This document shows, piece after piece, positions 6,817 through 23,800 of a stretch of 64,000 nucleotides of DNA. How positions within the stretch are numbered: the first letter of the stretch is position 1; each line of letters opens with the position of its first letter. This DNA is from Cellvibrio sp. UBA7671. Its GTDB lineage: Bacteria > Pseudomonadota > Gammaproteobacteria > Pseudomonadales > Cellvibrionaceae. The notes under the pieces are model-generated. The model was not told the origin of the DNA. It was given only the letters and a program-made list of their open reading frames with translations, and searched no databases. The stretch is from NCBI GenBank assembly GCA_002483145.1, contig DLHJ01000004.1, forward strand, positions 186,001 through 250,000, in the 5' to 3' direction. Made by a program: the position numbers and the translations under genes.

Positions 6817-7185
6817 TCAATGGCTAATCATCCATGGCCGCATTGATGGAAACATTTTATTGCCGCCAGCGGTATACATGAGATTCGATTTGCGGATCGG
6901 CTTATCGCCACAACCACAGCCTTTACCATGTTTGTGCTCACGCCGTGCCTGCTGTTCGGCGCGGTAATCCGGCGTAGAAAAAATGGGGGCATTCATCGCA
7001 CTTTCATTGCGTGCATGTGCTGCGCGGTTTTCTTTTTTCATATTCAGAAATTCCGGCGCGACCATAATGACTCGTGCACTCAACTTTGCACAGGTTGGGC
7101 AAGCAGCGGGTTTGCTCGAATCATCCATCGAAGCCAATTCATAAAACAGACCGTGGTCTGCGCATTTGTAGTCGTAAACGGGCAT
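6817..7185 (-). CDS. fmdB: FmdB-family zinc-ribbon protein
   Basis: A 122-residue protein with the FmdB zinc ribbon at its start: MPVYDYKCADHG and ACPTCAKLSARVIMVAPEF, giving C8/H11-like and CPTC ligands. A KGCGCGD motif lies in the second half, and the rest is polar and probably disordered. FmdB was named as a possible regulator of the Methylophilus formamidase operon, though its biochemical role is not settled. It lies directly downstream of fmdA on the same strand, with a long hairpin in between. GAGGAATTCACATG gives a firm start. Confidence 0.85.
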   Translation of the reverse strand: MPVYDYKCADHGLFYELASMDDSSKPAACPTCAKLSARVIMVAPEFLNMKKENRAAHARNESAMNAPIFSTPDYRAEQQARREHKHGKGCGCGDKPIRKSNLMYTAGGNKMFPSMRPWMISH

Positions 7186-7285: not shown

Positions 7286-8515
7286 TTACTTATCTTTAGA
7301 TAAAGGCACATCCATTCCCGGCGTTACCTTTTTGGTTGGCCCTTCTGCGGAGGGATTAACATCAAAATCAAAAATATCCGTCGGCAGCCACAAGGTTGCA
7401 CAGGCATTCGGAATATCCACCACACCCGAGATATGCCCTTGCACCGGAGCACAACCGAGAATTGCATAAGCCTGCGCTTTGGAGTAACCAAATTTGGTCA
7501 AATAATTAATCGCATTCAAACAGGCCTGGCGATAGGCGACATGCACATCGAGATAATGTTGCTCGCCGTATTCATCGACTGAAATACCTTCGAAGATTAA
7601 ATAGTCATCGTATTTCGGTGCGATCGGGCTTGGTTTAAAGATCGGATTTTTAATAGCGTATTTCGCCATACCATCTTTAATTAAACTCACCCGCAGATGG
7701 ATCCAACCCGCCATTTCAATGGCACCACAGAAAGTGATTTCACCATCGCCTTGGCTGAAGTGCAAATCGCCAACCGAAAGCCCACCGCCCTTCACATATA
7801 CCGGAAAATAAATTTTAGAGCCGCGCGATAAATCTTTAATGTCGCAGTTACCACCGTGTTCACGCGGTGGCACGGTGCGCGCACCTTCAGCAGCTGCAAT
7901 TTTTGCCGCATCGGGAGCCATTTTGCCCATGTGAGCGGTGTCGGCATAAGGGAGTGTGGCAAGCGCTGGAACGCGATCGGGCTCAGTATCGTAAAGCTCT
8001 TTTTCGCGCTTGTTCCACTCTAACAACATTTCTTTCGATGGCAGACAACCAATCAAACCGGGATGTACCAGTCCGGCAAATTCCACATTAGGCACATGAC
8101 GGGATTTGGTAAACATACCGTTGATATCCCAGATCGATTTCTGCGCTTCCGGGAAATGCTCTGTTAAAAATCCGCCCCCATTTTTCCTGGAGAAAAATCC
8201 ATTGAAGCCCCACAAGCTTTCTTGGAAGGCACCAATGTCGAGAATATCCACCACTAATAAATCACCCGGCTCTGCGCCTTCCACTCCCACCGGGCCAGAG
8301 AGGAAATGTACTTGCGATAAATCTACATCGCGCACGTCATCGGCATTGTCGTTATTCGCAATCTGGCCGCCCGTCCAGTCATAGCATTCAATAATAAAAT
8401 CTTCACCAGGCTTCACGGTTTTGACCATGGGAATATCCGGATGCCAGCGATTGTGGATCATTTCATTTTCATAGGGCGATTTGGTTAAATCTATTTTGAT
8501 AATCGTTTCAGCCAT
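7286..8515 (-). CDS. fmdA: formamidase
   Basis: Formamide amidohydrolase of the FmdA/AmdA family (409 residues, close to the roughly 405 of the Methylophilus enzyme), splitting formamide into formate and ammonia in the cytoplasm. Conserved stretches include HNRWHPDIPMVKTVKPGEDF, FLSGPVGVEGAEPGDLLVVDI, GFFSRKNGGGF, REHGGNCDIKDLSRGSKIYFPV, LSVGDLHFSQGDGEITFCGAIEM and AYAILGCAPVQGHISGVVDIPN. The C-terminal end, IPNACATLWLPTDIFDFDV, is also typical. AGGAG lies eight bases before the ATG. Its promoter region (8564-8637) carries an operator also found before urtA, which ties it to the ABC transporter. The ammonia produced would serve as a nitrogen source. Confidence 0.94.
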   Translation of the reverse strand: MAETIIKIDLTKSPYENEMIHNRWHPDIPMVKTVKPGEDFIIECYDWTGGQIANNDNADDVRDVDLSQVHFLSGPVGVEGAEPGDLLVVDILDIGAFQESLWGFNGFFSRKNGGGFLTEHFPEAQKSIWDINGMFTKSRHVPNVEFAGLVHPGLIGCLPSKEMLLEWNKREKELYDTEPDRVPALATLPYADTAHMGKMAPDAAKIAAAEGARTVPPREHGGNCDIKDLSRGSKIYFPVYVKGGGLSVGDLHFSQGDGEITFCGAIEMAGWIHLRVSLIKDGMAKYAIKNPIFKPSPIAPKYDDYLIFEGISVDEYGEQHYLDVHVAYRQACLNAINYLTKFGYSKAQAYAILGCAPVQGHISGVVDIPNACATLWLPTDIFDFDVNPSAEGPTKKVTPGMDVPLSKDK

Positions 8516-8563
8516 GGTTCTGACTCCTGGTGAGTGTTGGACAATACGTCTCGGAACAGGGTC

Positions 8564-8637
8564 AGTATCTGGCGCAGACTAACGAATCACCATACGACAA
8601 ATAGCGCGCGCACCTACGCTATTTGACGTATGGACAA
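8564..8637 (-). promoter_or_regulatory. fmdA promoter with 44-bp inverted operator shared with urtA
   Basis: Half-sites CCATACGACAAATAGCG (8590-8606) and CGCTATTTGACGTATGG (8617-8633) are inverted, match at 16 of 17 positions, and are separated by 10 bp. The conserved outer half extends to 8614-8637. The same arrangement recurs at 20597-20640 before urtA. A -10-like GATACT (reverse strand, 8564-8569) begins 21 bases from the operator edge, exactly as in urtA. This would place the near half-site against the -35 region, as for class II activators. 17-bp half-sites are usual for AraC-type proteins, and such a gene lies immediately adjacent. Confidence 0.75.
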
Positions 8638-9795
8638 TCAGTTTTTACGGTTGAGTTGATCAACGTAATCTGTTGGCGTCATATGGAGGAATTTTTTAAA
8701 CGCGCGATAAAAGGTCGATTTACTGTTGAAGCCAGCATCGGCCATCACATCCAGCATGGAGGTTTTGCCGTTACGGCTGGCCAATATGTAAGCCGCCTTT
8801 TGCACGCGATGGAAGTTGATGTAATCAAAAAAGTTTTGTCCGGCATCGCGGTTAATGGCAGCGGAAATTTTTCGCACAGGAATCTCGCTAACTTCCGCCA
8901 GTTGCTCCAGCGTGAATTCAGGATCGAGATAGAGCTCCTTGTCTTTCATCAACTGATTGAGTTTTGTCATAATCAGTGGGTCATATTTTTCAGGTTCAGG
9001 TGCGTCAGATTTTTCCTCCTCTGACACTACTCGCCGATATCCGATGGTGGAATGGGCCATGCTATAAAGCACTAATGCATTGACAAACACGAAGCTAAAC
9101 ACGTTGCCGGAAATACCAATCAGATTTCCAATCCATTGGGATGCATTTAGCAGCGTTAGCAAGTAAGAAATAAACACCCACACCCAAATCATCAAAAAAC
9201 CACCTATCAACATTTGCAACCAAAACATATCGATGTTTTCAATGTTGGAGTAGTGCTGCTTTAAACGGTTTTTGTATTGGAAAAGTAGGTAAAAACAACC
9301 GATGCCATAACCTACATATAAGAAATGCCTCATCCATAGATGCATCTGGAATACAGGCTCTTTGTATAACAATCCAAATTGGGTAATACCCAGCACCCGT
9401 TCTTCTGGTGTCAGGCTGGTATAGAGGCCGATGATAAACAAGGGGAATAGCAGCAGCGGCAACAAGTGTACGGCATACCGCCAGTGCAGCTTGAAGTCGG
9501 GATCAATCATCGATTTCACATAAAAAAATAACATAGGTGCCGCAAGGTAAACGCTGAATTTCAACCAATAAAATATGTGTACAGCGCCATCCAGATAGGC
9601 AACTTTGATACTAGGACTCCAGTAGATAAGCGAATCAAACGCATCGAGCCCTATCGCTAGCAGAAACATTGCGAGAAAAAAATTGGCCTGACGCCTTCCC
9701 AGATTCGCCGTCAACAAAAGAATAGAGAAAAGCAACGACTGGAAAATGACCAGAATAAGAGGAATATCATTAAAGCTTAAAACTAATTTATCCAC
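8638..9795 (-). CDS. membrane-bound AraC-family transcriptional regulator (7TM + AraC HTH)
   Basis: A 385-residue protein with an unusual plan. The first 270 residues or so form seven hydrophobic helices, including LILVIFQSLLFSILLLTANLG, FFLAMFLLAIGLDAFDSLIY, YAVHLLPLLLFPLFIIGLY and VFSFVFVNALVLYSM. The last 100 form a full AraC double helix-turn-helix (LEQLAEVSEIPVRKISAAIN...FNSKSTFYRAFKKFLHMTPTDYV). It should bind DNA while anchored in the inner membrane and may sense a ligand through its membrane part. It starts with GTG at 9795. Its stop abuts the shared operator before fmdA, so it reads towards and shares strand with the formamidase gene, making it the first candidate to bind that operator. 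Confidence 0.85.
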   Translation of the reverse strand: MDKLVLSFNDIPLILVIFQSLLFSILLLTANLGRRQANFFLAMFLLAIGLDAFDSLIYWSPSIKVAYLDGAVHIFYWLKFSVYLAAPMLFFYVKSMIDPDFKLHWRYAVHLLPLLLFPLFIIGLYTSLTPEERVLGITQFGLLYKEPVFQMHLWMRHFLYVGYGIGCFYLLFQYKNRLKQHYSNIENIDMFWLQMLIGGFLMIWVWVFISYLLTLLNASQWIGNLIGISGNVFSFVFVNALVLYSMAHSTIGYRRVVSEEEKSDAPEPEKYDPLIMTKLNQLMKDKELYLDPEFTLEQLAEVSEIPVRKISAAINRDAGQNFFDYINFHRVQKAAYILASRNGKTSMLDVMADAGFNSKSTFYRAFKKFLHMTPTDYVDQLNRKN

Positions 9796-9925
9796 CTAAA
9801 GCCCACCGATGTTTGTTTATTTTTATGTCACATCATTCTTCATAAAACCAGCATAGCCCAGGGGTTGAGTGTCAACAAACAAAAGGACGACTTAATACCT
9901 GCGGCATCGCAGGCAAAGGCTGAGC

Positions 9926-9951
9926 TAAAAAACCGGCGCAATTGCGCCGGT
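9926..9951 (-). terminator. intrinsic terminator of the large GH81 gene
   Basis: The perfect palindrome ACCGGCGCAATTGCGCCGGT (9932-9951) is followed, reading on the reverse strand, by TTTTTT. It lies 25 bases after the glucanase stop codon. Confidence 0.85.
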
Positions 9952-9975
9952 GATAATTGCATTGCGGGCAAATTC

Positions 9976-12900
9976 TTATTGCACAGTCCATGTATGGGGT
10001 TGGTTGCTATTATTGGCTTCACCACGGCTGGCGGTGCTGATGGTGAAGTAATAATTCAGCGCAGTGCCTGGGGTGATACCGGGAATGATCACCTCAAAGC
10101 TGTTGCCCTGTAAGCGGGTCATGTTGTTCCAGCCAGGGGTAAATACCCATACCCAGTTCAGGTTTTCAGTGGTGGTGAAGGTGATTTTCACCCCGCCATT
10201 GCTGTAGCTGGCAGTAGTGGTGTAAGCCACGTTCGCGCCATTTGGCATTACTGCACTCGCCGAGTAGCCATTAGTGACCACGGAAGACGAAGAGCTGGAG
10301 CTACTGGATGACAGCGATGAGCTGGAACTGCTCGATGGCACCAATGAACTGGATACGCTGGATACTGACGAAGAACCCGCCCAATAGGTCATTGTTTTCC
10401 AGCTGGTTTCACCTGGACCAGGGTAGAAGGTTTGACCACTACTTGGATTGAAAGTGTAAAACCGCGCTTCAACCACATCCCAGCCCGCATAAACACTATT
10501 GCGGGTGATTTGGTAGGTGTAGGTACCATCGCCATTGTTGATCTCGGCGCCTGCCTGGGCTTGCAGGTCATTCACCACATAGTCCTGCAGGCCGTTGCGA
10601 CGGGCAAACAAATGTACCTGTTGTTTGCGCTCATTCAGGCGGATGCTGAACTGCATACCACCATTGGCCAGCGCGGTCATTTTCACTACCCCCAACTCCA
10701 CGCCCACTGACGAATTGCTGGAGGACAGACTGCTTGAGGATGACGTTGAGCTTGAAATGCTGGTGGACGTGCTGGTTGAAGACGAGCTGGATGAGCTGGG
10801 CACACTGGACGAGGTGCCGCAGTTAGCTGTGCTGTGGCTGTAGCTGTAAGGCCCCAGATCGTGCCCAACGGTATCAAAGTAAGTGAATTCAAAATTCACA
10901 CCGCTGTTGTTGTTCAGGCCGGTCACGTCAAAGTAGGACTTGCCCTCCGCCGTTTTCGGCATGCGATAGCCACCTGCCTGCATGGGTGAAGTGAGGCGGA
11001 TATCAGCCCAAACCGCGCTGCGATTGAGGGTGATACGCACCGCGCTGCAACTGGTGCTTTCTATGCAGTAGGCAGCGGTTGGGTCGCAGGCGGGCGGTGC
11101 TTCACTGGTGACAACGGTAAGTGTTGCCGCGGGCGATAGCGCCGCGTTATTGCTCGCAATCACACTGACTTGGTAGCTGGTTGCGGCATTCAGGCCGGTA
11201 AATGCGCGCTGGACAGCACCGCCAGTGGAGGGAATCGACTGTACCAATGTGCCGTTGCTACGCAGCTCAATGGCATAGTCGGCGTTCAGGTAGGCAGCGG
11301 GAATAGCGCTCCAGCTCACGGTGAAACTCTGGTGATCCACATTAGTGGTGCTAAGGTTTTTCACTGCTGGCACCAGGCTGGTATCTAATGAAGTCTCAAA
11401 GGTGCTGTAGGCCGAGCGGCCGCTTAAACCTTCAAAAACAGAGGTTACGCTCAGGCTGTAGCTGGTGCTGTGGGTCAAACCGGTAATGGCGACTGAGGTG
11501 CCGGTGACCAGCTGGTTAAACACTTCGCTGCCGCTGCTGTCTTTCACCACTGCGCGATAGCTGGCGCCAGTCCACTCGCCAGTCAACGCTGTCCAGCTGG
11601 CATTGGCACCGGTAAAGCTTAGGTTTGCCACACTCAGGTTGCTTACCGCTGGCGCCACAGCGTCGTCACCGCTCATGCTAAAGGGCGCCACACTAATACT
11701 GACTCCATCGCTAAAAGTGATGGTTTTGGGCGTGGCCGTAGGGTTGTAAGCCACATAGGTGCGGGTGCCATTTTTTTCAAACACCGCGTAGTGCGCGGTA
11801 TCGGCGCTAATGCCTTTTACCGGGCGACCTAATTGACGCAGGTTGAAAATCCAGTGATAGGTATGAGTTTTGCTGGCACCGGCTTCACTGCGCACTTCGT
11901 CATTGGGGTACATAGGTGCGAGTGAGGGATCAAACTCGGTTTTGTAGTTGCCGGCGGCATTGAACTTGTCGGCCGCTGTCTGCGGGTTGACCAATGCTTC
12001 GGCCTGCCACATCAAATCGTCCCAGAATTTGGTTTTGCGACGGAAATCGTACTGGGTGTACTCGGCGGGCAGGTCTCTGTGCCAGAGTACAGAGGCAAAG
12101 AAGTTGGTGTCCTCATTCAGACGATCCATCACCAGTTGCAGCGAGGGAATAGTGCTGCCACTACTGAGTTTGCGCTCCATATGGCCCAAGTGCAGGGAGG
12201 CGCCGGTCACGGGCAGGAAGTTGATGCCCGCAATCATACGCGGTGCAGCCGAGAACCAGGTGCCGTAGTCGGCCTTGCTGTGCCATACCAGGCCCACCGA
12301 GGCGCGGTCAAAATCCTTCTGCACAAATTGGCTGCCGTTATCCCAGAATACATTGCGTGGAAATACCGCATTGTCCACATCGAACCAGTATTGGTGAATG
12401 GCCTGGATCTCGCTGGCATAGAGGAAAATCCCCAAGTCGCGAATGGCGCTGTCGCCGGTTTCCGAACCCCAGAGCGCAACCGCTTGGGCGAAGTTAATAC
12501 TCTCGGAGGAGGACTCCTGATTGCCGCCGGCGTCCATGTTCAAATGGCCATTGGCGAGTGAGTAGCCGTTGTAGATGTCAAAGTAGCGCAGGTACTGGAA
12601 GCGGGTATCGCTGCGATCCCAGTTGGCTGAGTCTTTAATCAACAAGTCGACCATTGGCTTCCACTGCTGCGCCCAGCTGTGGTCATAGCGGGCGATGGCG
12701 GCAGCGGCCGAGATCAAATAACCGGCGTGGAAATGGTGATCGTTCAGTTCGGTATCCGAGCCAAAACTGGCGGGGTAGCCGGTGAGCGAGTTCCACTCCT
12801 CGTTGTAGTAGAAGTATTTTTTCTCGTTGGCGAGGCGCAAGTCGCGGTAGCAGTTACTGCGCGCGGGTTCAGCCATGGGGTTGCAATGGCTATTGTTGTA

Positions 12901-14646
12901 GGCCTGGTCTTGCTGCCAGTCGTCGGCACTTAACCAATCTTCCAAATGCGTTTTAATGCGCCCCATCAAGGTGGCGGCAATATCGCTTCTGCCGGTTTGC
13001 TCGGCAATGTGCAGCAGCTGCAGCATCCAGTTCAGTTCTTTGCCGTTGTTGTAGGTATCCAGCACATCGTTTTGGGTAAGGCCGTCGGCCCACTGGCCGT
13101 TTTTGTCCTGCTCCAACAATGTCATCAAACGCTCCAGCTCGGCGCCTTCCAATTTATTGGGCAGGTTGGGCAGCAGGCCAGGGTGGTGAATGCGGGTCTC
13201 AAAGCTATTACCTTTAATCACTTTCATCTCACCGCGCGGGGTGGAGTAGGTGTAGGCGTAATCGAGGTCGCCCGCGTTAATGTATTGGTGGCGATAGAGC
13301 CCCATCATGGTTTGGTTGATGGCATTAGGGTCAGCGTATTGCTCGGTGCCTACCTGATGGGTGGTGACTGTGTAAGTGGATACCACTTCTGCGGTCGCCT
13401 CGTTATAGCGGTAGTCAAAGCGGGTATCGGTGGGCAGAGCATAGGCATGGCGGCGATAGTCAGCAATCAGCGCATCCAGTTCTTCGACTCCGACACCGTC
13501 ACCGGCTTCATCCTCGCGGAAAAAATCCCCAACCAAACGCGATACCACCAGCGGCTGGCGGGTGCCAGCGATATGGGTGGGCAAGTCGCTCACCGCCGTA
13601 CCTGCAGCAATCGCAAAACCCTGCTCGGTATAGCTGGTAGGCGCCTTGAAAATGTCGTTAATTTCGTTGGGCAGAACCGCCACGCTGAAATACTGGTGAC
13701 TGGCGGGCAGGGTCATGGTTATCTGGCCATTGCTGGCCAGCTCTTTCAAGTCAAGATTCGCCAGGTTGTAGCTGAACTGAGTGCCCGGCGGCGCAAAAAT
13801 TCCGTAGCCTGCACGCACGTCGCCCAAGTACAGGGCGAGCACTCCGTCGGACTCGTGCACAATGCGCATACCATTAAAGTAGGTGAAACTCACGCTACTC
13901 AGGCCCGTTTTCTGGAAGTGAATGTAGGGCGAACCATTCACCAGAGTCACCCTTGCAGCCTGAGTGTTTTCATTGGCGTCGGGATTTTTGAGCAGCACGG
14001 TGGCGGCAAAGTCGCTGTAGTTATCCAACTGGGTTTCATCGGCATCCATACCGTCAAAACGAATATTCAGCTCGGTGCCACCCAGCGGGTCAAGGCGTGG
14101 GTCGATGCGCGCCGGATAGGTGTAGGCGGTGAATTTCGGGTTGCTGGTGGATGGCAGTACCCGTTTGTCGGAGTTGGGATCCTCGTAGCGGTAGGGCACC
14201 AGCAGCGGGATTTGCGCATAAGTCAGGTTGACGCCGCGATTAGTGAACTTGAGCGTGTAGGGCGAATTACTCATCCAGTGTGAGTAGGGCACGGTATCCA
14301 CATTAGTTTCGATAATGCCGCCGTTTTCATTGCGGATCAGGTTTTTTACAGCGTGGGGCCAGACCACCGAGGACCAGAACTCGTGCGTGGGAGTGGGTTT
14401 ACCCGAGCTTTGAAAGCGGTTGGTGACCTTGGGGCTCTGCTCCTGGCGTGGCACATAAATACCCCAGGGCTGCCCTTGTGGCACGGTTTGGTCATAACCT
14501 TCAGCGGTGGATGGCGCCCAGCGATGGGCGGGTTTTTCGGTAGTAAAACTACCGGCGCCGGCAGGTACTTCCCCCGCCTGTACAGCGATGGAGGTGGTGA
14601 GCAGGCTGGGCAACAATACCCCGATTAATCGTCTACAGGATTGCAT
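9976..14646 (-). CDS. secreted multimodular GH81 endo-beta-1,3-glucanase
   Basis: A 1556-residue exported enzyme expected to cut beta-1,3-glucans such as laminarin, curdlan or callose. Order: signal peptide (about 1-24, ending SIAVQA); GH81 catalytic domain (about 40-990); two fibronectin III domains (about 995-1088 and 1089-1183); then three small beta-modules (about 1186-1270, 1315-1420, 1461-1556) separated by poly-Ser linkers. Catalytic candidates are Asp636 in LNDHHFHAGY and Glu711/Glu715 in GGNQESSSE. This E-x3-E spacing and the 75-residue gap from the Asp match the family. The first and last beta-modules resemble glucan-binding modules (VWADIRL; WNNMTRLQGNSFEVIIPG), a tentative reading. 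The gene stands alone, with its own terminator. Confidence 0.92.
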   Translation of the reverse strand: MQSCRRLIGVLLPSLLTTSIAVQAGEVPAGAGSFTTEKPAHRWAPSTAEGYDQTVPQGQPWGIYVPRQEQSPKVTNRFQSSGKPTPTHEFWSSVVWPHAVKNLIRNENGGIIETNVDTVPYSHWMSNSPYTLKFTNRGVNLTYAQIPLLVPYRYEDPNSDKRVLPSTSNPKFTAYTYPARIDPRLDPLGGTELNIRFDGMDADETQLDNYSDFAATVLLKNPDANENTQAARVTLVNGSPYIHFQKTGLSSVSFTYFNGMRIVHESDGVLALYLGDVRAGYGIFAPPGTQFSYNLANLDLKELASNGQITMTLPASHQYFSVAVLPNEINDIFKAPTSYTEQGFAIAAGTAVSDLPTHIAGTRQPLVVSRLVGDFFREDEAGDGVGVEELDALIADYRRHAYALPTDTRFDYRYNEATAEVVSTYTVTTHQVGTEQYADPNAINQTMMGLYRHQYINAGDLDYAYTYSTPRGEMKVIKGNSFETRIHHPGLLPNLPNKLEGAELERLMTLLEQDKNGQWADGLTQNDVLDTYNNGKELNWMLQLLHIAEQTGRSDIAATLMGRIKTHLEDWLSADDWQQDQAYNNSHCNPMAEPARSNCYRDLRLANEKKYFYYNEEWNSLTGYPASFGSDTELNDHHFHAGYLISAAAAIARYDHSWAQQWKPMVDLLIKDSANWDRSDTRFQYLRYFDIYNGYSLANGHLNMDAGGNQESSSESINFAQAVALWGSETGDSAIRDLGIFLYASEIQAIHQYWFDVDNAVFPRNVFWDNGSQFVQKDFDRASVGLVWHSKADYGTWFSAAPRMIAGINFLPVTGASLHLGHMERKLSSGSTIPSLQLVMDRLNEDTNFFASVLWHRDLPAEYTQYDFRRKTKFWDDLMWQAEALVNPQTAADKFNAAGNYKTEFDPSLAPMYPNDEVRSEAGASKTHTYHWIFNLRQLGRPVKGISADTAHYAVFEKNGTRTYVAYNPTATPKTITFSDGVSISVAPFSMSGDDAVAPAVSNLSVANLSFTGANASWTALTGEWTGASYRAVVKDSSGSEVFNQLVTGTSVAITGLTHSTSYSLSVTSVFEGLSGRSAYSTFETSLDTSLVPAVKNLSTTNVDHQSFTVSWSAIPAAYLNADYAIELRSNGTLVQSIPSTGGAVQRAFTGLNAATSYQVSVIASNNAALSPAATLTVVTSEAPPACDPTAAYCIESTSCSAVRITLNRSAVWADIRLTSPMQAGGYRMPKTAEGKSYFDVTGLNNNSGVNFEFTYFDTVGHDLGPYSYSHSTANCGTSSSVPSSSSSSSTSTSTSISSSTSSSSSLSSSNSSVGVELGVVKMTALANGGMQFSIRLNERKQQVHLFARRNGLQDYVVNDLQAQAGAEINNGDGTYTYQITRNSVYAGWDVVEARFYTFNPSSGQTFYPGPGETSWKTMTYWAGSSSVSSVSSSLVPSSSSSSSLSSSSSSSSSSVVTNGYSASAVMPNGANVAYTTTASYSNGGVKITFTTTENLNWVWVFTPGWNNMTRLQGNSFEVIIPGITPGTALNYYFTISTASRGEANNSNQPHTWTVQ

Positions 14647-14937
14647 CTCGTATACCTCTTTTATTGATTATTGTGAGCACCGCAATGGCGGTTAACTTAT
14701 CTAATCAAAGTGCGAGGAGGCTGTCGTCCCAGCGGCGGATCGGTGCTCCTTGAGACGCACATTAAAAGTCCCACTAATAAGTCCCAGTTGAGATTCACGC
14801 AGGCAGTACGCGTTGAACCCAGCGTCAAGCGCGTGATTGTGCAAAGACTGTGATAACCAGTAAGAAGCCCGAACTATTATTTTTATTATTTATCTTAGAA
14901 ACGTCTTTTAGCAATTTGACCAATCACGAGGTAAACA

Positions 14938-15258
14938 ATGAAGATATTAATAAAAGCAGCGCAATGCGCAGGTGTTTTGGGCGTTTTACTGCATTCGTTT
15001 GCAATGCCAGTCTACGCCGCTGAACAGCAGCGACCACCGCGCGATGAACATCATTTCGGCCCACCTCAAGAAGCACTGCTTGCCTGCAAAGGATTAACGG
15101 AAAATGATGTCTGTTCGTTTGCAGGGCGCAATGATGAATTGGTGAACGGCGTGTGCAGCACACCTCCGCACCAATCAGATGAGATCACCCTTGCGTGCAA
15201 ACCAGACAATATGCCAGAACCACACAATGGAGAACCGCCTGAAGACCGTCAGGATTAA
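14938..15258 (+). CDS. small secreted Cys-containing protein
   Basis: A 106-residue protein with a clear signal peptide (KILIKAAQCAGVLGVLLHSF...PVYAAE) and a short mature part. The mature region carries four cysteines in two pairs: ALLACKGLTENDVCSF and NGVCSTPPHQSDEITLACKP. The ends are rich in Pro, Glu and Asp. I recall similar short periplasmic proteins with ACxGxxxGDxCSF...GxCxxPP...LACxP patterns, but none has a function I can name. The cysteines suggest disulfides or metal binding. GAGGTAAACAATG gives a firm start. It lies between the large glucanase (divergent) and urtE (convergent); no functional link is evident. Confidence 0.7.
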   Translation: MKILIKAAQCAGVLGVLLHSFAMPVYAAEQQRPPRDEHHFGPPQEALLACKGLTENDVCSFAGRNDELVNGVCSTPPHQSDEITLACKPDNMPEPHNGEPPEDRQD

Positions 15259-15271
15259 CGGCAAATAAAAG

Positions 15272-15307
15272 AGCCAGCAATCGCCCGAGACGTAGCGAAA
15301 GCTGGCT
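15272..15307. terminator. hairpin between the small secreted gene and urtE
   Basis: AGCCAGC...TCGC pairs with GCGA...GCTGGCT in two stacked stems (15272-15284 with 15295-15307). It lies between convergent genes; no strong T-tract follows in the plus direction. Confidence 0.45.
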
Positions 15308-15358
15308 TAAGAAGTAATAACTGAAATCAAAACAACAATGAAAAATTACACTGCCCTT

Positions 15359-16048
15359 TTACACTGATAAGTAGGACGCAACCTTTGCCTCATTAATCGT
15401 CTCGCGTAATTCTTCATGAACTATTTCGCCTTTCTCGATCACCAGAATCCGGTCGGCAATATCCAATGCAAAACTTAATACCTGCTCTGAAACAACAATT
15501 GATAAACCGCGCTGGTCGCGAATCATTTTTAAGGTTCGACCAATTTCGCGAATGATCGACGGCTGAATACCTTCTGTCGGTTCGTCGAGAAATAACATTT
15601 TTGGATCACTCGCCAGTGCGCGGGCAATCGCTAATTGCTGTTGCTGACCACCGGATAAATTACCGCCACGGCGATTGCGCATCTCCAATAGCACCGGAAA
15701 CATATCGTAAAGTTCTTGTGGTACCGAACGTCTTTTTGTAGTGGTTAAACCTGTCTCAATATTTTCCTTTACGGTCATGCTGGAAAATATCATCCGCCCT
15801 TGGGGTACAAAACCAAACCCGCCGGCAACACGCTGGTAACTTTTCAGTTGGCTCACTTCCTTGCCGTCCAGTTTTACACTGCCACCGGAGCTGGGGATCA
15901 CACCCATCAAGGATTTCATCAGTGTGGTTTTGCCCATGCCATTGCGGCCCATCACCGCGACAATTTCACGCGGCTTCACTTCAAAATTTAATCCGTGTAA
16001 CACTTCGCTCTGGCCATAACTGACACGATAATCACTGACAGACAACAT
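15359..16048 (-). CDS. urtE: urea/short-amide ABC transporter ATPase UrtE
   Basis: A 229-residue ABC ATPase of the branched-chain/urea (LivF-like) type. Walker A is GRNGMGKTTL, the signature LSGGQQQQLAIARAL, Walker B MLFLDEPTEG, followed by the IQPSIIREIGRTL switch region. It is the last gene of urtABCDE, 23 bp after urtD, with GAGGAATTTATTATG before the start. Together with UrtD it powers uptake through UrtB/UrtC. The ordered set of five genes is what supports Urt over a LivF assignment. Confidence 0.92.
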   Translation of the reverse strand: MLSVSDYRVSYGQSEVLHGLNFEVKPREIVAVMGRNGMGKTTLMKSLMGVIPSSGGSVKLDGKEVSQLKSYQRVAGGFGFVPQGRMIFSSMTVKENIETGLTTTKRRSVPQELYDMFPVLLEMRNRRGGNLSGGQQQQLAIARALASDPKMLFLDEPTEGIQPSIIREIGRTLKMIRDQRGLSIVVSEQVLSFALDIADRILVIEKGEIVHEELRETINEAKVASYLSV

Positions 16049-16071
16049 AATAAATTCCTCGTGCTATGGGT

Positions 16072-16818
16072 TTAATGGCCCAGGTAGACTTCAATCACTT
16101 TCGGATCATTTTTGACTTTATCGACCGAACCTTCGGCGAGAATTTTGCCTTGGTGCAACACGGTGACCTTATCGGCGATTTGCGCTACAAATTGCATATC
16201 GTGCTCAATCACAATCACCGAACGGTCTTTGATAATGCTGCGCAATAACTCTGCAGTTTGTTGCCTTTCGCCTACTGACATTCCCGCTACAGGCTCATCC
16301 AGCATCAACAAGTCCGGGTCTTGCATCAACAACATGCCGATTTCGAGCCATTGTTTTTGCCCATGGCTGAGCAGTTCCGCTTGTTTATCCAATTGGTCGC
16401 CAAGAAAAATCATATTGGCAACTTCATGGACTTTACTGATCACTTCCTCATCGCGTTTAAATACCAACGCGCCGAATACCGAGCGTCCGCGCGGAAAAGA
16501 AATTTCCAGGTTTTCAAATACACTCAAGTCGCCGTAGATAGAAGGGGTTTGAAACTTGCGGCCAACACCGGCTTTAACGATATCGTGCTCCTTCATTCTG
16601 GTGAGTTCGCGGTTGCGAAATTTAATGGAGCCATCAGTCGCTTTGGTGCGGCCACAAATCAAATCCAACACTGTAGTTTTGCCCGCGCCATTAGGGCCGA
16701 TAATGACGCGGATCTCATTTTCATCCACATAAAAAGTCAAATCATTAACCGCTTTAAAACCATCGAAGGAGACAGTGAGACCTTCCACCGCCAGGACAAA
16801 GTCAGTATTACTGCTCAT
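16072..16818 (-). CDS. urtD: urea/short-amide ABC transporter ATPase UrtD
   Basis: A 248-residue ABC ATPase of the LivG-like type. Walker A is GPNGAGKTTVLDLICG, the signature LSHGQKQWLEIGMLL, Walker B LLMLDEPVAGMS. SHGQKQWLEIG is the usual UrtD version of the signature motif. The ATG at 16818 has AAGGAG six bases upstream and is preferred over the TTG two codons earlier. The gene overlaps the end of urtC by 11 bp, indicating translational coupling. Confidence 0.93.
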   Translation of the reverse strand: MSSNTDFVLAVEGLTVSFDGFKAVNDLTFYVDENEIRVIIGPNGAGKTTVLDLICGRTKATDGSIKFRNRELTRMKEHDIVKAGVGRKFQTPSIYGDLSVFENLEISFPRGRSVFGALVFKRDEEVISKVHEVANMIFLGDQLDKQAELLSHGQKQWLEIGMLLMQDPDLLMLDEPVAGMSVGERQQTAELLRSIIKDRSVIVIEHDMQFVAQIADKVTVLHQGKILAEGSVDKVKNDPKVIEVYLGH

Positions 16819-18013
16819 GGACAACTCCTTGCGGCAAGGTGACAGATTCAGTTTTAGTATTGGTTGGTTTTGATGGCAGAGGTGTTGGTGGTGATGAATG
16901 ACTCACGGGAGTTTTGCCAAATAATTTGGCGAAGAACGCGTCTACTTTCGGTGCAGCGTAGGTGTTGTATAAACCGGCCAGACCGTTAGGAAATGCCATT
17001 ACCACCGCGATAAATAAACCACCCATCGCAAACAACCAAAGCTCCGGAAAACTCTCCGAAAATGAGGTTTTAGCAAAATTCACCAATAGCGCGCCATACA
17101 CTGCGCCGATGATGGATAAACGTCCGCCAACTGCGCAGAAAATTACCATTTCAATCGAAGGTACAATACCGACTAAAGTAGGCGACATGAATCCCACCTG
17201 CAGGGTAAACATGGCACCACCAATCGCTGCGAAAATAGCACCAACGCAGAAGACAAAAATTTTAAAGTTAGAAACGTCGTAACCCGAGAAACGCACACGG
17301 TCTTCTTTATCACGCATTGCCACTAACAATCGGCCCAATTTACTTTTACGAATAAATTGCGCGATAAACAAGCATACAAACAGCAAAAACACGCATACAA
17401 AATAAAACACGTATTTGGCGTTGTCGGTGCGGATATCCCAACCGTGCAAGGTGCGCAAATCGGTCATACCATTTACACCGCCGGTATAACCTTGTTGGCC
17501 GATAATTAAAATCGTCAGAATTGCAGCGAGTGCTTGGGTAATAATCGCAAAGTACACGCCCCCTACCCTGCGCTTAAACATGGCAACGCCGATGATGTAG
17601 CCCAAAATGGTGGGCAGCAAAATAATCGCCAGCAGCGTAAATCCAAAACTGTAGAAGGGCTCCCAAAAGAAAGGCAATTCGGTAATTTGGTTCCAGTCCA
17701 TAAAATCCGGAATGCCGGGTGTGGATTGAATTTTGGTGCTCTCCGGATCAGAGGCTTCCAATTTCAAAAACATCGCCATGGCATAACCGCCTAAACCGAA
17801 AAAAACACCCTGCCCTAAACTTAAAATCCCACCATAACCCCAGCACAGAACCAAACCCACAGCAACAAAAGCATAGGTTAAATATTTACCGACAAGGTTG
17901 AGGCGAAAAATATCCAGCGAGAGCGGCAGCACAACCACCAGAATTAATGCGAGCACCAAAAAACTATAGAGATCTTTTTTCGGCAAGAGTGATCTGAAAC
18001 CTTGATAGGACAT
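16808..18013 (-). CDS. urtC: urea/short-amide ABC transporter permease UrtC
   Basis: A 401-residue LivM-type permease with about ten membrane helices. Typical segments are YAFVAVGLVLCWGYGGILSLGQGVFFGLGGYAM near the start, GYIIGVAMFKRRVGGVYFAIITQALAAI, the coupling-loop region SKLGRLLVAMRDKEDRVRFSGYD, and VGIVPSIEMVIFCAVGGR. The C-terminus after about residue 360 is a Pro/Thr-rich tail with no membrane helix. It lies 15 bp after urtB, with GAGGAG before the ATG, and overlaps urtD. Confidence 0.93.
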   Translation of the reverse strand: MSYQGFRSLLPKKDLYSFLVLALILVVVLPLSLDIFRLNLVGKYLTYAFVAVGLVLCWGYGGILSLGQGVFFGLGGYAMAMFLKLEASDPESTKIQSTPGIPDFMDWNQITELPFFWEPFYSFGFTLLAIILLPTILGYIIGVAMFKRRVGGVYFAIITQALAAILTILIIGQQGYTGGVNGMTDLRTLHGWDIRTDNAKYVFYFVCVFLLFVCLFIAQFIRKSKLGRLLVAMRDKEDRVRFSGYDVSNFKIFVFCVGAIFAAIGGAMFTLQVGFMSPTLVGIVPSIEMVIFCAVGGRLSIIGAVYGALLVNFAKTSFSESFPELWLFAMGGLFIAVVMAFPNGLAGLYNTYAAPKVDAFFAKLFGKTPVSHSSPPTPLPSKPTNTKTESVTLPQGVVHEQ

Positions 18014-18028
18014 AATGAGAGACTCCTC

Positions 18029-18955
18029 TTAACGGCGTACTTTCAGGGTGAACAAACCTTGCGGGCGTAGCATCAGGATCAACACGACAAACAAGAGTGT
18101 TAATACTTTGGACATAGAACCACTCATAAAGAATTCCATGGTCGATTGCGCTTGCGAAATGCTGAATGCTGAAGCAATGGTGCCAAGCAAACTGGATGCG
18201 CCACCAAATACCACCACCAGGAATGTATCGACAATATAAAGTTGGCCAGAGGTTGGGCCGGTAGAACCAATCATCGTAAACGCGCTGCCCGCAACGCCCG
18301 CAATGCCGCAACCCAGCGCGAACGTAACGCGATCCACTTTGCCGGTATTAATGCCCACTGCACCTGCCATAGGGCGATTCTGTACTACAGCGCGCACTTG
18401 AGTGCCCCAACGCGAGCGATACATGAGCAAGGCAACTGCGAGTGAAATCCCGAGTGCGAGGCACATTACAAATAAACCGTTGATTGGTAACTCAATCGAT
18501 TCGGTGAGTTGATAAGAACCCATCAACCAATCCGGTAAGGTGACGCCCACTTCGCGCGGACCAAATACAGTGCGATAGGTTTGTTGCAGAATTAAACTTA
18601 AACCCCAAGTTGCCAAAAGAGTATCCAATGGCCGGTGGTATAGATGTCGAATCATCGCCCATTCGACTAATGCACCTAGTGCGGCGGCGGCGATAAACGC
18701 GAGTATCATCGCGAGAATAAAATAAATACTGAAAAAATCAGGCAGGTAAGTAGAAAAAACATGCGAAGTTAAATAAGTGACGTAAGCGCCGAGAATCATA
18801 AATTCGCCGTGCGCCATATTGATAACGCCCATCTGGCCAAAAATAATCGCCAGCCCCAAGGCCATAAGCACAAATACCGAAAACAAAATCAATCCCGCTA
18901 CACCTTGCATCGCAAAGATCGATAATAATTCCGAGCTACTGTATTCAGCGAACAT
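18029..18955 (-). CDS. urtB: urea/short-amide ABC transporter permease UrtB
   Basis: A 308-residue LivH-type permease. The N-terminal ALGLAIIFGQMGVINMAHGEFMILGAY stretch, the WAMIRHLYHRPLDTLLATWGLSLILQQTYR region and RAVVQNRPMAGAVGINTGKVDRVTFALG loop are all typical of UrtB. It forms the membrane channel with UrtC. GAGG precedes the ATG by a normal distance. It is separated from urtA by a 200-bp gap containing a 26-bp inverted repeat and a hairpin, so it may be expressed at a lower level than urtA. Confidence 0.93.
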   Translation of the reverse strand: MFAEYSSSELLSIFAMQGVAGLILFSVFVLMALGLAIIFGQMGVINMAHGEFMILGAYVTYLTSHVFSTYLPDFFSIYFILAMILAFIAAAALGALVEWAMIRHLYHRPLDTLLATWGLSLILQQTYRTVFGPREVGVTLPDWLMGSYQLTESIELPINGLFVMCLALGISLAVALLMYRSRWGTQVRAVVQNRPMAGAVGINTGKVDRVTFALGCGIAGVAGSAFTMIGSTGPTSGQLYIVDTFLVVVFGGASSLLGTIASAFSISQAQSTMEFFMSGSMSKVLTLLFVVLILMLRPQGLFTLKVRR

Positions 18956-18998
18956 AGCTGCACCTCATCTCGATTTAAAAACAGAGCTTCTATCCAAA

Positions 18999-19101
18999 GT
19001 GAGGAGTAGAGTTCAATTTAAAACACGCCGTAAATACATCCATGTAGGCTAAAATCGGCATCCATGCCTCATATTGTTTTAAATCAAACTCTACTCCTCA
19101 C
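18999..19101. repeat. 103-bp inverted-repeat element in the urtA-urtB gap
   Basis: The left arm at 18999-19024 (starts GTGAGGAGTAGAGTT) and the right arm at 19076-19101 are inverted copies matching at 24 of 26 positions, with a 51-bp interior. The interior has further short symmetry (ACATCCATGTAGG and GGCATCCATGCC). The size and plan suit a REP/BIME- or MITE-like mobile repeat, or a large mRNA fold that lowers expression downstream of urtA. No transposase is present. Confidence 0.65.
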
Positions 19102-19125
19102 TCATCACGATCTTCTCAACACATA

Positions 19126-19153
19126 TCGCAACCAGCCTTGCGGCTGGTTGCGA
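19126..19153 (-). terminator. 12-bp hairpin downstream of urtA
   Basis: TCGCAACCAGCC pairs perfectly with GGCTGGTTGCGA around TTGC, five bases after the urtA stop. There is no T-tract, so it is probably an mRNA-stabilising or attenuating hairpin that favours the binding protein over the permeases. Confidence 0.65.
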
Positions 19154-19158
19154 CTTTA

Positions 19159-20421
19159 TTATTGATAACCTTTCGGGAATGGATCCGGTTCGATCAAATC
19201 TTTGGTTTCGAAGACCACATCGTATTGACCATCAGTGCGTGCATGACCGATACGGGTTTTAGACCAGAGGTGATGATTGGGGTGAACTTTTACATAGCCT
19301 TCAGGCGCCGTCGTCAACTCAATACCGGGTGATGCAGCGCGCACTTTATCGATATCAAATGATCCCGCTTTTTCCACTGCCGCTTTCCACAACCAAGGGC
19401 CGAGGTATGCAGCCTGGGTTACGTCACCGATCACGATATCTTTGCCATACTTCGCTTTGAAATCCGCAACAAATTTCTTGTTGTTTTCGTTCGGCAAACT
19501 TTGGAAATATTTCATCGCTGCATAAGCACCGACCATGTTCTCACCACCGATACCCAGAATTTCGTCTTCGGTTACCGAAATGGTCAACACCAATGGTTTT
19601 TCTTTAGTCATATCAATACCGGCCGCTTTTAATTGCTTGTAGAAGGCAACGTTAGAACCGCCCACCACAATCGCATAAATCACGTCGGGCTTTTTCAATT
19701 TAATTTTGTTGATCACCGAGTTAAATTGGGTATGACCGAGTGGATAATATTCTTCACCCACCACACTCAAGCCTAATTTTTCAATGTGCTTGCGCGCAAT
19801 TTTGTTAGAGGTACGCGGCCAAATATAATCGGAACCGAGCAAGTAGAATGATTTGGCACCCTTGGTTTTAGTTACCCAATCGATACCGGCAATGATTTGT
19901 TGCGTTGCCTCCTGACCGGTATAAATCACGTTAGGCGATTGTTCCAAACCTTCGTAGAAGGTCGGGTAATACAACATACCGTTGTACTGTTCAAAAATTG
20001 GCAACACGGCTTTGCGCGATGCAGATGTCCAGCAACCGAACACTGCAGCAACTTTGTCGTTCACCAATAATTTTTTAGATTTCTCCGCAAAGGTTGGCCA
20101 GTCACTTGCACCGTCTTCCTGGATGTATTCAATTTTGCGACCAAGCACACCACCCATCGCATTGATTTGATCGATCGCCAGCTTTTCTGCTTGCACCGAA
20201 CCTGTCTCACTGATCGACATGGTGCCGGTCACCGAGTGCAGGATACCCACTTTCACAGTCGTATCTGTCACTGCTAGGCCAGTCGTGTTTACATCGGCAG
20301 CTTGAGCATTACCAAACACAAGCGAAGCCGCCAGTGTGAGCAAACATTTTTTCCAGGTTTTCATGCCCGCACCCTGTGTGCGGGGCGAAACATGAAAGGA
20401 AGATAGCAGGGTCTTGTTCAT
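19159..20421 (-). CDS. urtA: urea/short-amide ABC transporter substrate-binding protein UrtA
   Basis: Periplasmic type I binding protein of the Urt/Liv class, about 420 residues. A signal peptide lies around residues 18-41 (KKCLLTLAASLVFGNAQAAD). Family stretches follow: VKVGILHSVTGTMSISE, AVFGCWTSASRKAVLPIFEQYNGMLYYPTFYEGLEQS, NVIYTGQEATQQI, VGEEYYPLGHTQF and NVAFYKQL. FGCWTSASRKAVLP and YYPTFYEGLE are characteristic of UrtA. The ATG at 20421 has TGAGGA at a good distance; an ATG at 20364 would give a more ordinary signal peptide and remains possible. It is first in urtABCDE, and its promoter carries the operator shared with fmdA. The ligand may be formamide or another amide as well as urea. 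Confidence 0.93.
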   Translation of the reverse strand: MNKTLLSSFHVSPRTQGAGMKTWKKCLLTLAASLVFGNAQAADVNTTGLAVTDTTVKVGILHSVTGTMSISETGSVQAEKLAIDQINAMGGVLGRKIEYIQEDGASDWPTFAEKSKKLLVNDKVAAVFGCWTSASRKAVLPIFEQYNGMLYYPTFYEGLEQSPNVIYTGQEATQQIIAGIDWVTKTKGAKSFYLLGSDYIWPRTSNKIARKHIEKLGLSVVGEEYYPLGHTQFNSVINKIKLKKPDVIYAIVVGGSNVAFYKQLKAAGIDMTKEKPLVLTISVTEDEILGIGGENMVGAYAAMKYFQSLPNENNKKFVADFKAKYGKDIVIGDVTQAAYLGPWLWKAAVEKAGSFDIDKVRAASPGIELTTAPEGYVKVHPNHHLWSKTRIGHARTDGQYDVVFETKDLIEPDPFPKGYQ

Positions 20422-20570
20422 GGTCATTCCTCAGGTAATTAAAAATTGTTTAGGTTGCGCACAAGCTGTAATAGGGATTTGCAGATTGTTACCACTGAGT
20501 TTTTTGTCCTTACTGCGACGTTTAATCACTGAGAGGGAGCTTTGAAGCGGAAGCTGTCTCTACGCTTCAC

Positions 20571-20644
20571 AATCTAAGCGCGAGCAGCATTTGAGACCAT
20601 TCGATAAATGACACAGACCACTACGTTATTTGACGCATGGATAA
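20571..20644 (-). promoter_or_regulatory. urtA promoter with operator shared with fmdA
   Basis: CCATTCGATAAATGACA (20597-20613) and CGTTATTTGACGCATGG (20624-20640) are inverted half-sites with a 10-bp spacer. The far arm, extended to 20621-20644, matches the fmdA site at 21 of 24 positions, and all three differences are C/T changes. A -10-like TAGATT (reverse strand, 20571-20576) starts 21 bases from the operator edge, as in fmdA. The near arm is the weaker one in both promoters. It also lies 220 bp before the divergent permease-kinase gene. I see nothing else recognisable in the 445-bp gap. Confidence 0.72.
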
Positions 20645-20866: not shown

Positions 20867-23800
20867 ATGACTGCCAAGCAGCATATATTTCGCGTGCGGC
20901 GTAATTACAACCAGTGGGTTGCCAACCAGACACTGGAAGATTACGCGCTGCGCTTCACTGCCAAAAGCGCACGGCGCTGGTCTGCTGCACGGGTAGCAAC
21001 CACAGCGCTGGGCGCTATTTCGTTTCTTGCATTGGAAGCCATAGGCGGTGCAATTACCTTGCACTATGGCTTTAACAATGCAGTCGCCGCGATTATGGCG
21101 GTGAGCTTGATTATTTTTCTCACCGCCATTCCCATCAGCTACTACGCTGCCAAATACGGTGTGGATATCGACCTGCTCACACGCGGCGCAGGTTTTGGTT
21201 ATATCGGTTCAACTATCACTTCGCTGATTTACGCATCCTTCACGTTTATTTTTTTCGCGCTCGAAGCTGCCATTATGGCGATGGCTTTGGATTTATTATT
21301 TGGAATCCCGCTCGCATGGGGATACTTAATCAGTTCATTGGCGATAATCCCACTGGTAACCCACGGCATTACCTTTATCAGCCGGTTCCAATTATGGAGC
21401 CAACCACTGTGGATTATTCTGCAGTTATTGCCGTTTGTTTTTATTATCTATGCCGATGCCAGCGCGGTAGAAAGTTGGACAGAATTTTCGGGCGGGATGC
21501 AAGCACAAGAAGCACAAGATGAAGGCATTAATATTTTATTATTTGGTGCAGCCTCCGCCGTTATTTTTTCGTTGATTGCACAAATCGGCGAGCAGGTGGA
21601 TTTTTTACGCTTTTTGCCCGAACCAAAACCCAATGCGCGCTTGCGCTGGTGGGCTGCACTGATTGCTGGTGGACCTGGCTGGATTGTAATAGGTGCGATA
21701 AAAATTCTCGCCGGTTCGTTTCTCGCCGTACTCACATTAAATCACGGTATTGGTATCGAAGAAGCTGCCGATCCAACACGGATGTATATGGTGGCGTTTA
21801 GTTATATCGCCAGCTCGCCGGAAGTGGCTTTATCGGTCGCGGGTATTTTTGTCATTTTGAGCCAGCTCAAAATTAATGTAACCAATGCCTATGCCGGTTC
21901 AATTGCCTGGTCGAATTTTTTCTCGCGTTTAACCCACAGCCACCCCGGTCGCGTGGTGTGGCTGGTATTTAATGTGGCGATTGCATTGCTGCTGATGGAG
22001 CTTGGCGTTTATCGCGCATTGGAACAAACGCTAGGTTTTTATGGGATAGTCGCCGTGGCTTGGTTGGGTTCGCTGGTGGCCGATCTCGTGATTAACAAAC
22101 CGCTCGGCCTAAGCCCGAAACACATTGAATTCAAACGCGCGCACTTATTCGATATTAATCCTGTGGGCGTGGGTTCAATGTTGATTGCTTCGATTGCCGG
22201 CATTGTTTGCCATACGGGAATCCTCGGTAATATTGCACAGGCGCTTTCACATTTTATCGCGCTGGGCCTTGCACTTATCTGTGCACCACTGATTGCATTT
22301 GCCACTGGTGGGCGATATTACCTTGCCCGTCCGGTCGTTAATGTGATGAAAGATGCCGATCACAGCGAAGGTACTCACGCTACGATTTCCTGCTGTATTT
22401 GCGAACATAAATTTGAAACTGAAGATATCACCTACTGCCCCGCTTACGCTGGACACATCTGCTCGTTATGTTGCTCGCTTGATGCACGCTGTCACGATTA
22501 CTGTAAACCGGGCGCTAATTATTCCACGCAGCTGAGCAATTTCTTTAAGGTATTTTTACCTAAGTCGATTACCACCAATATCAATTCGCGTGTGGGGCAT
22601 TTTGTAGTCCTTGTGCTATTTATTAACGGGCTCTCGGCGATTCTTCTCTCACTCATTTATTTCCAAACGCCGATCGATGCACCAGAGACAGCAGCATTAT
22701 TAGAAGCAACATTGTGGAAAGTATTTTTCCTGTTAGTGATTATTACCGGCGTAGTCAGCTGGTTATTTGTATTGGCCCATGAAAGCCGTGTTGTTGCACA
22801 GGAAGAATCGCAACGGCAGACACGCTTGCTTATGGAAGAAATTGAAGCACATGAACGCACCGACCGCGCACTGCAAACCGCTAAAGAAGAAGCAGAGGCG
22901 GCCAATCAGGCCAAAAGCCGCTACCTCACCGGAATTAGCCATGAACTGCGCTCACCGCTAAATGCCGTACTGGGTTATGCACAATTATTGGAAAAAGATC
23001 CGAGCATGCCAGCGCATCGCAAAGACGCGTTGGGTGTCATCCGCCGCAGCGGCGAACATCTTGCGGATTTGATTGAGGGTCTGTTGGATATTTCCAAAAT
23101 CGAAGCTGGACGATTGGATTTGCATCAAGACCAAGTGCGCATTGCGGTATTAATGGAACAGCTGGTTCATATGTTCCGTTTACAAGCGGAAGCCAAAGGC
23201 TTGATCTTTATTTACGAATGCAAAGACCGACTGCCGGAATTTGTGCGCACCGATGAAAAACGCCTGCGCCAGATTTTAATTAATTTATTATCCAACGCCA
23301 TTAAATACACTGACAAAGGTAGTGTGGTGTTTAAACTGCGCTATCGCAGTCAGGTCGCTGAATTTACGATTACTGATACCGGTGAAGGCATTGCACCGGA
23401 AAACATCGAGCGTATTTTTCGCCCCTTTGAACGCGTGCGCCGCGCAGGTTCTACTGCAACGGGAACCGGATTGGGATTAACGATTACCCGCTTGCTCAGT
23501 GAAATTATGGGTGGCGATATCGCCGTCACCAGCACACCCGGCGTTGGCAGCACCTTTAAAGCGAGCTTAATGCTCGCCAGCATCAGCAAGCCCCACCCCG
23601 AATTTATCACCGCACCGGTGCAAACTATTTACGGTTACAAAGGCACAGTGCGGACTCTCATGCTGGTTGACGATGAAGCATCGCACCGCCAACTGATGCG
23701 CGCCATGTTGGCACCGCTCGGTTTCGAAATTATAGAACTGGATAATCCCCTGCTTGCGCTTGATCGGCTAATGCAGGAAATAGACAACAACCGCAGCCCG

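Follow-up and report, generated by a model that had tools for sequence, protein, structure and literature searches.

A shared dyad operator before formamidase and urea/amide transport genes in Cellvibrio and its probable recognition by a NarL-type response regulator

A common operator precedes fmdA and urtA

Which protein reads the shared 44-bp element found before two separate operons of Cellvibrio sp. UBA7671, and which genes does it join? The elements lie on the minus strand of a 64,000-nucleotide stretch of this genome (GenBank assembly GCA_002483145.1, contig DLHJ01000004.1, positions 186,001 to 250,000; hereafter, the window), one before the formamidase gene fmdA (8590..8633) and the other before urtA (20597..20640), which encodes the substrate-binding protein of an ABC transporter. 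An earlier note, made from the letters of the window, had described both as a pair of inverted 17-bp halves and had assigned them to a neighboring AraC-type protein. The LuxR/NarL-type response regulator encoded beyond urtA (24372..25289, plus strand, 305 amino acids) would instead recognize the site as its operator and activate from one or two dimer sites; from the comparative evidence below, we put the probability of this reading at about 0.85.

The description of the element itself proved exact. The halves occupy 8590-8606 and 8617-8633 at fmdA and 20597-20613 and 20624-20640 at urtA, with a 10-bp spacer in each case, and the inverted halves agree at 16/17 positions at fmdA and 12/17 at urtA. 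The two 44-mers are identical at 32/44 positions; when the 400-bp regions upstream of the two genes were shuffled (first-order Markov), the best 44-mer match equaled this in 0/1000 trials and reached at most 29. The stretches 8614-8637 and 20621-20644 agree at 21/24 positions, with all three differences being C/T, and a -10-like hexamer begins at the 21st base beyond the operator at both promoters (GATACT at 8569-8564 and TAGATT at 20576-20571, minus strand), as the earlier note had reported.

Operators of NarL/LuxR-type regulators are defined as 7-2-7 sites, i.e., two heptamers separated by a 2-bp gap. Each promoter-distal half contains such a dyad, namely, TACGTCA-AA-TAGCGTA at fmdA (8615..8630, minus strand; one mismatch to the dyad pattern, conserved in the Cellvibrio alignment) and TGCGTCA-AA-TAACGTA at urtA (20622..20637, minus strand), whose core is conserved across Proteobacteria. 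The core consensus is TRCGTYA-WW-TRACGYA, and a weaker copy is centered 22 bp nearer the gene. From alignment with relatives, we infer the proximal copies at 8593..8608 for fmdA, where the dyad is asymmetric, its outer heptamer TGTCGTA is the better-kept half, and its center lies 22 bp from that of the distal dyad, and at 20600..20615 for urtA (both minus strand). A 17-bp half thus already contains a complete 7-2-7 dyad, so that two dimer sites are a better reading of the 44-bp operator than a pair of AraC half-sites. The 22 bp between dyad centers is approximately two helical turns, which would place both dimers on one face of the DNA.

Within the genome under study (G000; 5.04 Mb, 19 contigs), a 20-bp half consensus at zero to one mismatch retrieved only the fmdA and urtA loci, and a 48-column model of the paired site (30 sites) at an E value of ≤10 likewise retrieved only these two, each weakly on the opposite strand as well. 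At up to three mismatches, the half consensus occurred at 11 places, compared with 14 for the reversed control pattern. The element is thus not a dispersed repeat at many unrelated loci, the outcome by which the earlier note would have discarded it.

Conservation within Cellvibrio

The operator was found before fmdA in 18/18 Cellvibrio genomes having this gene (15 plus G014, G016, and G021) and before urtA in 16 Cellvibrio genomes; G023 and G030 fall outside this count, as their contigs end. In the upstream alignment, the site is kept while the flanks vary. GATACT occurs in 15/15 Cellvibrio fmdA promoters examined, 20 bases past the operator in 14 and 21 bases past it in the remaining one. The expectation of a shared operator kept in relatives with a conserved -10 spacing was therefore borne out. 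The layout that the earlier note described, a strong far half and a weak near half, held in part: measured against the half consensus, the far half is the better one at 8/13 Cellvibrio urtA sites, whereas the near half equals or exceeds it at 13/15 Cellvibrio fmdA sites, so that the layout is not general. Where fmdA has joined the urt operon (urtE-fmdA distance of 30 to 70 bp; G001, G130, and G141), no separate strong site precedes fmdA.

Conservation at fmdA continues past the -10 hexamer (window 8540-8569 and Cellvibrio relatives) as GATACTGA-CC-G--CCG-GAC, perhaps a start-site or leader element.

The site tracks the response regulator gene

The regulator combines a phosphorylatable receiver with a GerE helix-turn-helix domain. 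Receiver residues D14, D15, D58, T88, and K110 and the helix-turn-helix segment SPRTVNKHLE are invariant in 16/16 aligned regulators. To follow the site through the 144 genomes of the family, the paired 48-column model replaced a noisy single-half search, in which one 17-bp half at one mismatch matched 82/144 genomes, many by chance, with a similar result for the reversed control. A regulator ortholog (E value of ≤1e-30) is present in 82 genomes and the site (E value of ≤0.05) in 73; 67 genomes have both, 15 the regulator only, 6 the site only, and 56 neither (Fisher p = 6e-19, a value that ignores shared ancestry).

A strong site (E value of ≤1e-5) occurs in 33 genomes, and 32 of these have the regulator, the exception being a fragmented assembly that is 85% complete (G023). 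This same incomplete assembly is the only one among 49 genomes with fmdA to give no regulator match. No more than 25 kb separates the strong site from the regulator gene in 45/52 cases. The remaining seven comprise sites on separate contigs where the assembly is fragmented (G023, G026, G030, and G032), two at the far end of a contig (G020), and one in front of an fmdA gene that is unlinked to the regulator gene, at a distance of 120 kb (G048). In G020, the whole urt-fmdA region appears twice with nearly equal sequence, near both ends of one 4.7-Mb contig (L075 and L076), a duplication that probably reflects overlapping ends of a circular assembly that was left unclosed.

The same comparison bears on the AraC-type protein (8638-9795), which the earlier note had proposed to bind the two inverted halves in a class II arrangement. 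In the window, its gene is the immediate upstream neighbor of the fmdA operator, the length of the halves and their proximity to the -35 region fit AraC proteins, and the inverted layout of RhaS/RhaR provides a precedent. Across genomes, this proximity does not persist: the gene adjoins the site in only 5/18 Cellvibrio genomes with fmdA (G000, G017, G019, G023, and G032), an ortholog (at least 46% identity) occurs in 7/144 family genomes, and 27/33 strong-site genomes lack it, while G031 has an ortholog (46%) but no site. Read from its sequence, the protein is of a membrane type with a hydrophobic N-terminal part of about 250 amino acids, and the own genome encodes 12 further relatives (E value of ≤1e-20). 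Overlap of the near half with the -35 region, or its placement beside it, is common to other class II activators and not diagnostic of AraC, and a full 7-2-7 dyad within the 17-bp half is what is expected for NarL-type dimers. We therefore regard binding by this protein as highly improbable. The alternative that the earlier note had named, the LuxR-type response regulator, is the one whose gene the site follows through the family and beyond. As a separate observation, the AraC gene belongs to a family of 13 members in its own genome at the above cutoff and stands next to a GH81 gene (9976-14646) in G000, G019, G023, and G032.

The dyad follows the regulator rather than the transporter

Many genomes carry a second, urea-type urtA, approximately 40% identical to the first; several genera have it linked with urease genes, and in Cellvibrio the linkage is to urea carboxylase. 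Upstream regions of both types were scored with a symmetric dyad matrix at a preset threshold of 14 (of 25.3). Some of the amide-type cases are among the Cellvibrionaceae sites used to train this matrix, and hence the amide-type count is partly circular; the urea-type, other-genus, and alphaproteobacterial counts are not. The dyad was found at 28/28 amide-type urtA genes beside the regulator. At urea-type urtA, it was found in 0/7 cases from genomes lacking the regulator (an eighth locus, of 220 bp in G031, was skipped) and in 2/32 cases in which the regulator sits beside the other urtA (scores of 15.1 and 14.9, both in genus g20). Where a regulator-bearing genome has no other urtA, 7/20 urea-type genes reached the threshold, and the remaining 13 share one dyad (ACCGTCAAATGACGTA or its complement) that scores 13.8, the highest reversed control in this group being 12.9. 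Taken as a set, these counts indicate that the operator goes with the regulator and not with the transporter. A dyad also precedes ureD in several genera (G063 and G098; Microbulbifer L180).

Urea carboxylase operon as a probable third target in Cellvibrio

The own genome also has a one-mismatch dyad 64 kb away from the regulator gene, at a distance of 160 bp from the allophanate hydrolase-urea carboxylase-GntR-urt2 operon that it precedes. Among regulator-bearing Cellvibrio genomes, 11/14 have a dyad scoring at least 13.3 at this operon (not G016, G017, or G020; weak in G024 and G025), compared with 0/2 Cellvibrio genomes without the regulator. The operon is thus a probable third target in Cellvibrio, which the regulator would also turn on. 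Outside this genus, it was dropped as a candidate, as 0/4 regulator-bearing genomes with the gene have the dyad. The local regulon of amide hydrolysis and ABC uptake that the earlier note had drawn from the shared operator is supported as to its members, but "local" is too narrow given dyads at 64 kb (this operon) and at 120 kb (the unlinked fmdA).

These loci also bear on whether another co-inherited regulator binds the site, such as the FmdB zinc ribbon protein, the GntR protein encoded with urea carboxylase, or a global nitrogen regulator. FmdB accompanies fmdA in the loci examined and, for the fmd cluster of Methylophilus, a review mentions a putative positive regulator (PMC10781810); no FmdB match was found, however, in loci with a dyad before urea-type urtA. 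The GntR gene sits in the separate urea carboxylase cluster, and a global regulator would have more sites than the two strong ones of the own genome. The partner common to dyad-bearing loci is the kinase/regulator pair. A different co-inherited binder is accordingly quite unlikely.

Distribution in Proteobacteria and two promoter registers

Beyond the family, at least 80 named regulator loci are among the matches listed (Marinobacter, Halomonas, Alcanivorax, Rhizobium, Agrobacterium, Roseibium, and others). The Cellvibrionaceae-trained matrix scores 18 or more in 57/80 of these loci and in 0/80 reversed controls. Within 700 bp, a dyad accompanies 58/62 of their urtA matches (reversed controls, 0/62) or, since two genes were matched twice, 56/60 urtA genes, in most loci at 97 to 275 bp from the match. 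At an E value of ≤1e-60, the regulator occurs in 15/369 evenly sampled Gammaproteobacteria, own genome included. One contig of a Rhizobium metagenome-assembled genome carries two copies of the regulator-urtA2 region in opposite orientation (L214/L215).

The position of the dyad relative to a -10-like [CG]ATA[CG]T hexamer falls into two registers. In alphaproteobacterial sites, the hexamer begins exactly 23 bases after the dyad in 19/26 distinct sequences, and in gamma- and betaproteobacterial sites, it begins exactly 45 bases after it in 8/29, with group labels assigned by hand. It occurred at no other offset, and the reversed controls gave one match (alpha) and none (gamma/beta). The two offsets differ by 22 bp, the same distance as that between the two dyads of the Cellvibrio operator, which suggests that the strong dyad occupies either a far register (approximately -65) or a near register (approximately -43).

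Together, these results suggest the following mechanism. The hybrid histidine kinase encoded at 20867-24325 would phosphorylate the response regulator encoded at 24372-25289, a dimer of which would read the dyad TRCGTYA-WW-TRACGYA. The Cellvibrio operator would hold two such dimers, one on a near-perfect site at about -65 and one on the weaker, asymmetric site at about -43, next to or overlapping the -35 region, as counted from presumed transcription starts. From these positions, contact with RNA polymerase would switch on fmdA and urtABCDE. The sampled Alphaproteobacteria have the strong dyad itself in the -43 register.

The same geometry speaks to the sign of regulation. A regulator that binds the site might instead repress, or the site might mainly serve autoregulation of the divergent kinase and regulator genes. 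Such a role would fit the position of the urtA site between two divergent genes; in the window, 227 bp separate its operator from the start of the kinase gene. Neither the fmdA site nor the urea carboxylase site, though, shares its intergenic region with a divergent kinase gene, and the fixed spacing to a weak -10 hexamer, along with the -43 and -65 registers, suits activation. We consider repression or autoregulation unlikely and favor activation by the response regulator.

Several observations weigh against the assignment to this regulator. The Fisher test of co-occurrence takes no account of shared ancestry, and 15/82 regulator-bearing family genomes lack a site at an E value of ≤0.05 in the filtered scan. 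A closer look, which covered all of these but G049, G125, and G142, retrieved a dyad in 11 (G036, G040, G068, G069, G087, G090, G094, G111, G113, G124, and G141) and none at zero to one mismatch in G134. The near dyad is poorly symmetric (3/7 heptamer positions, counted by hand). In the own genome, the dyad pattern at up to two mismatches is rarer than its reversed control (49 versus 113 per strand), and two of the five dyads with zero to one mismatch, a perfect one at C1:5373 and a one-mismatch dyad at C3:109714, fall inside open reading frames and were discarded as chance. Of the urea-type cases from regulator-bearing genomes without another urtA, 13/20 come from a single genus (g22). Among the listed loci, 4/62 urtA matches miss the dyad (L180, L227, L231, and L233), which in L180 lies further upstream, and several Marinomonas and Oceanospirillum regulator loci have neither urt genes nor a strong dyad nearby (L174, L176, L177, L179, L187, and L192); in these, the targets may be unlinked or the site may have changed.

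A sensor kinase with a predicted transporter fold

The kinase gene (20867..24325, plus strand) encodes a 1152-amino-acid hybrid protein with an NCS1-transporter-like N-terminal part (predicted), a Cys-rich segment, and HisKA, HATPase, and receiver domains. A structural model of the first 560 amino acids, which were aligned with 29 relatives (57 to 86% identity), reached a predicted local distance difference test score (pLDDT) of 79 and a predicted template modeling score (pTM) of 0.82. Its best PDB matches were the NCS1 transporters CodB (Foldseek E value of 3.2e-9) and Mhp1 (1.7e-8), with SLC5 structures ranking lower. The sensor part is thus predicted to have the NCS1 (nucleobase-transporter, LeuT-type) fold, a prediction that has no bearing on the identity of the ligand. 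In Pfam searches, no family covered the N-terminal part, there was no SLC5 match up to an E value of 10, and there was no STAC match, although the presence of a STAC model in Pfam was unchecked. The kinase may sense through this N-terminal part, plausibly responding to the availability or flux of amides or urea.

The Cys-rich segment (residues ~505 to 545), CCICEHKF...CSLCCSLDARCHDYC, separates the transporter-like part from the kinase core. C509, C512, C524, and C532 are conserved, several cysteines are nearly invariant in 30 relatives, and the segment is possibly metal binding.

Comparison with known systems

The accessible parts of the reports cited here provide several points of comparison. 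In the CrbS/CrbR (MxtR/ErdR) acetate system, a transporter-like domain is likewise fused to a hybrid kinase that is paired with a LuxR-type response regulator. The imperfect inverted repeat that CrbR requires lies at -52 to -36, and the ACTU motif, found by comparative genomics, is an imperfect inverted repeat beside the -35 region of uptake and catabolic genes (PMC5715377); the comparison covered its layout, not its letters. CrbS has an SLC5 symporter and a STAC domain (PMC5715377), in contrast to the predicted NCS1-like part and Cys-rich segment of the window kinase, which has no N-terminal Pfam match. The window system also differs in its amide/urea targets and in a dyad that is single or paired 22 bp apart. 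The RpuS/RpuR pyruvate system of Sinorhizobium fredii similarly joins a transporter-fused kinase (SLC5/STAC) to a conserved promoter motif needed for activation by RpuR, but its motif is an imperfect direct repeat and its target a pyruvate symporter (PMC9100948). Relative to the SLC5/STAC kinases (CrbS, CbrA, and RpuS), the window kinase thus shares the predicted arrangement of a transporter-fold sensor fused to a histidine kinase and not the SLC5 domain.

For the registers, the closest parallel is NarL at Escherichia coli ogt, a NarL-type regulator with 7-2-7 sites that activates from -44.5 and can act from -67.5, positions similar to -43 and -65. There, the sequence and signal are different, and the two targets are 33 bp apart rather than 22 bp (PMC7419079). 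Among amide-related loci, the fmdCABDEF amide/urea cluster of Methylophilus methylotrophus is related, and the accessible part of the review names no two-component system or operator for it (PMC10781810). Ectopseudomonas guguanensis G3 has the same neighborhood, with urtABCDE, LuxR-family two-component genes, and fmdA at an adjoining locus number, in a report whose accessible part is limited to annotation and gives no site or regulon (PMC13296017). A literature search covering few subscription journals found no description of the operator or regulon.

We lean toward the broader view that urea and short-chain amides have a proteobacterial regulon of their own, apparently undescribed, in which an NCS1-like sensor kinase and a NarL-type regulator serve as a general small-amide nitrogen sensor. 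Its dyad would occupy two interchangeable registers (-43 or -65) that differ by exactly two turns of DNA. When the regulator changes transporter operon, the operator would do so as well. If so, one regulator would serve formamidase and amide uptake in certain lineages, and in others it would serve urea uptake along with urease or urea carboxylase. The results supply a concrete candidate operator, regulator, and target list for a two-component pair that many Alpha- and Gammaproteobacteria encode beside their urea/amide transport genes, and they would explain how amide uptake, amide hydrolysis, and urea use are switched on jointly. They also offer a natural test of an activator working from -43 and -65 and point to the kinase as a possible transporter-type sensor that does not belong to the SLC5 group.

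Genes at the two loci

All target genes in the window lie on the minus strand. fmdA (7286..8515) matches NF045496 at 783.7 bits (cutoff, 500) and is followed downstream by a gene for an fmdB-like zinc ribbon protein (6817..7185; PF09723). urtA (19159..20427) matches TIGR03407 at 557.2 bits (cutoff, 492.75), and urtBCDE, encoding the permeases and ATPases, follow at 15359..18955. Both fmdB and urtBCDE are in their usual order, and the kinase and response regulator genes are divergent from urtA. Because of its link to fmdA, the window urtA is read as being of a short-chain amide/urea type. In genus g13, a nitrilase-family amidase gene (PF00795) lies between urtE and fmdA (12696-13739 in L145 and 14985-15992 in L155), adjoining an extra dyad in L155, a placement that fits a short-chain amide function.

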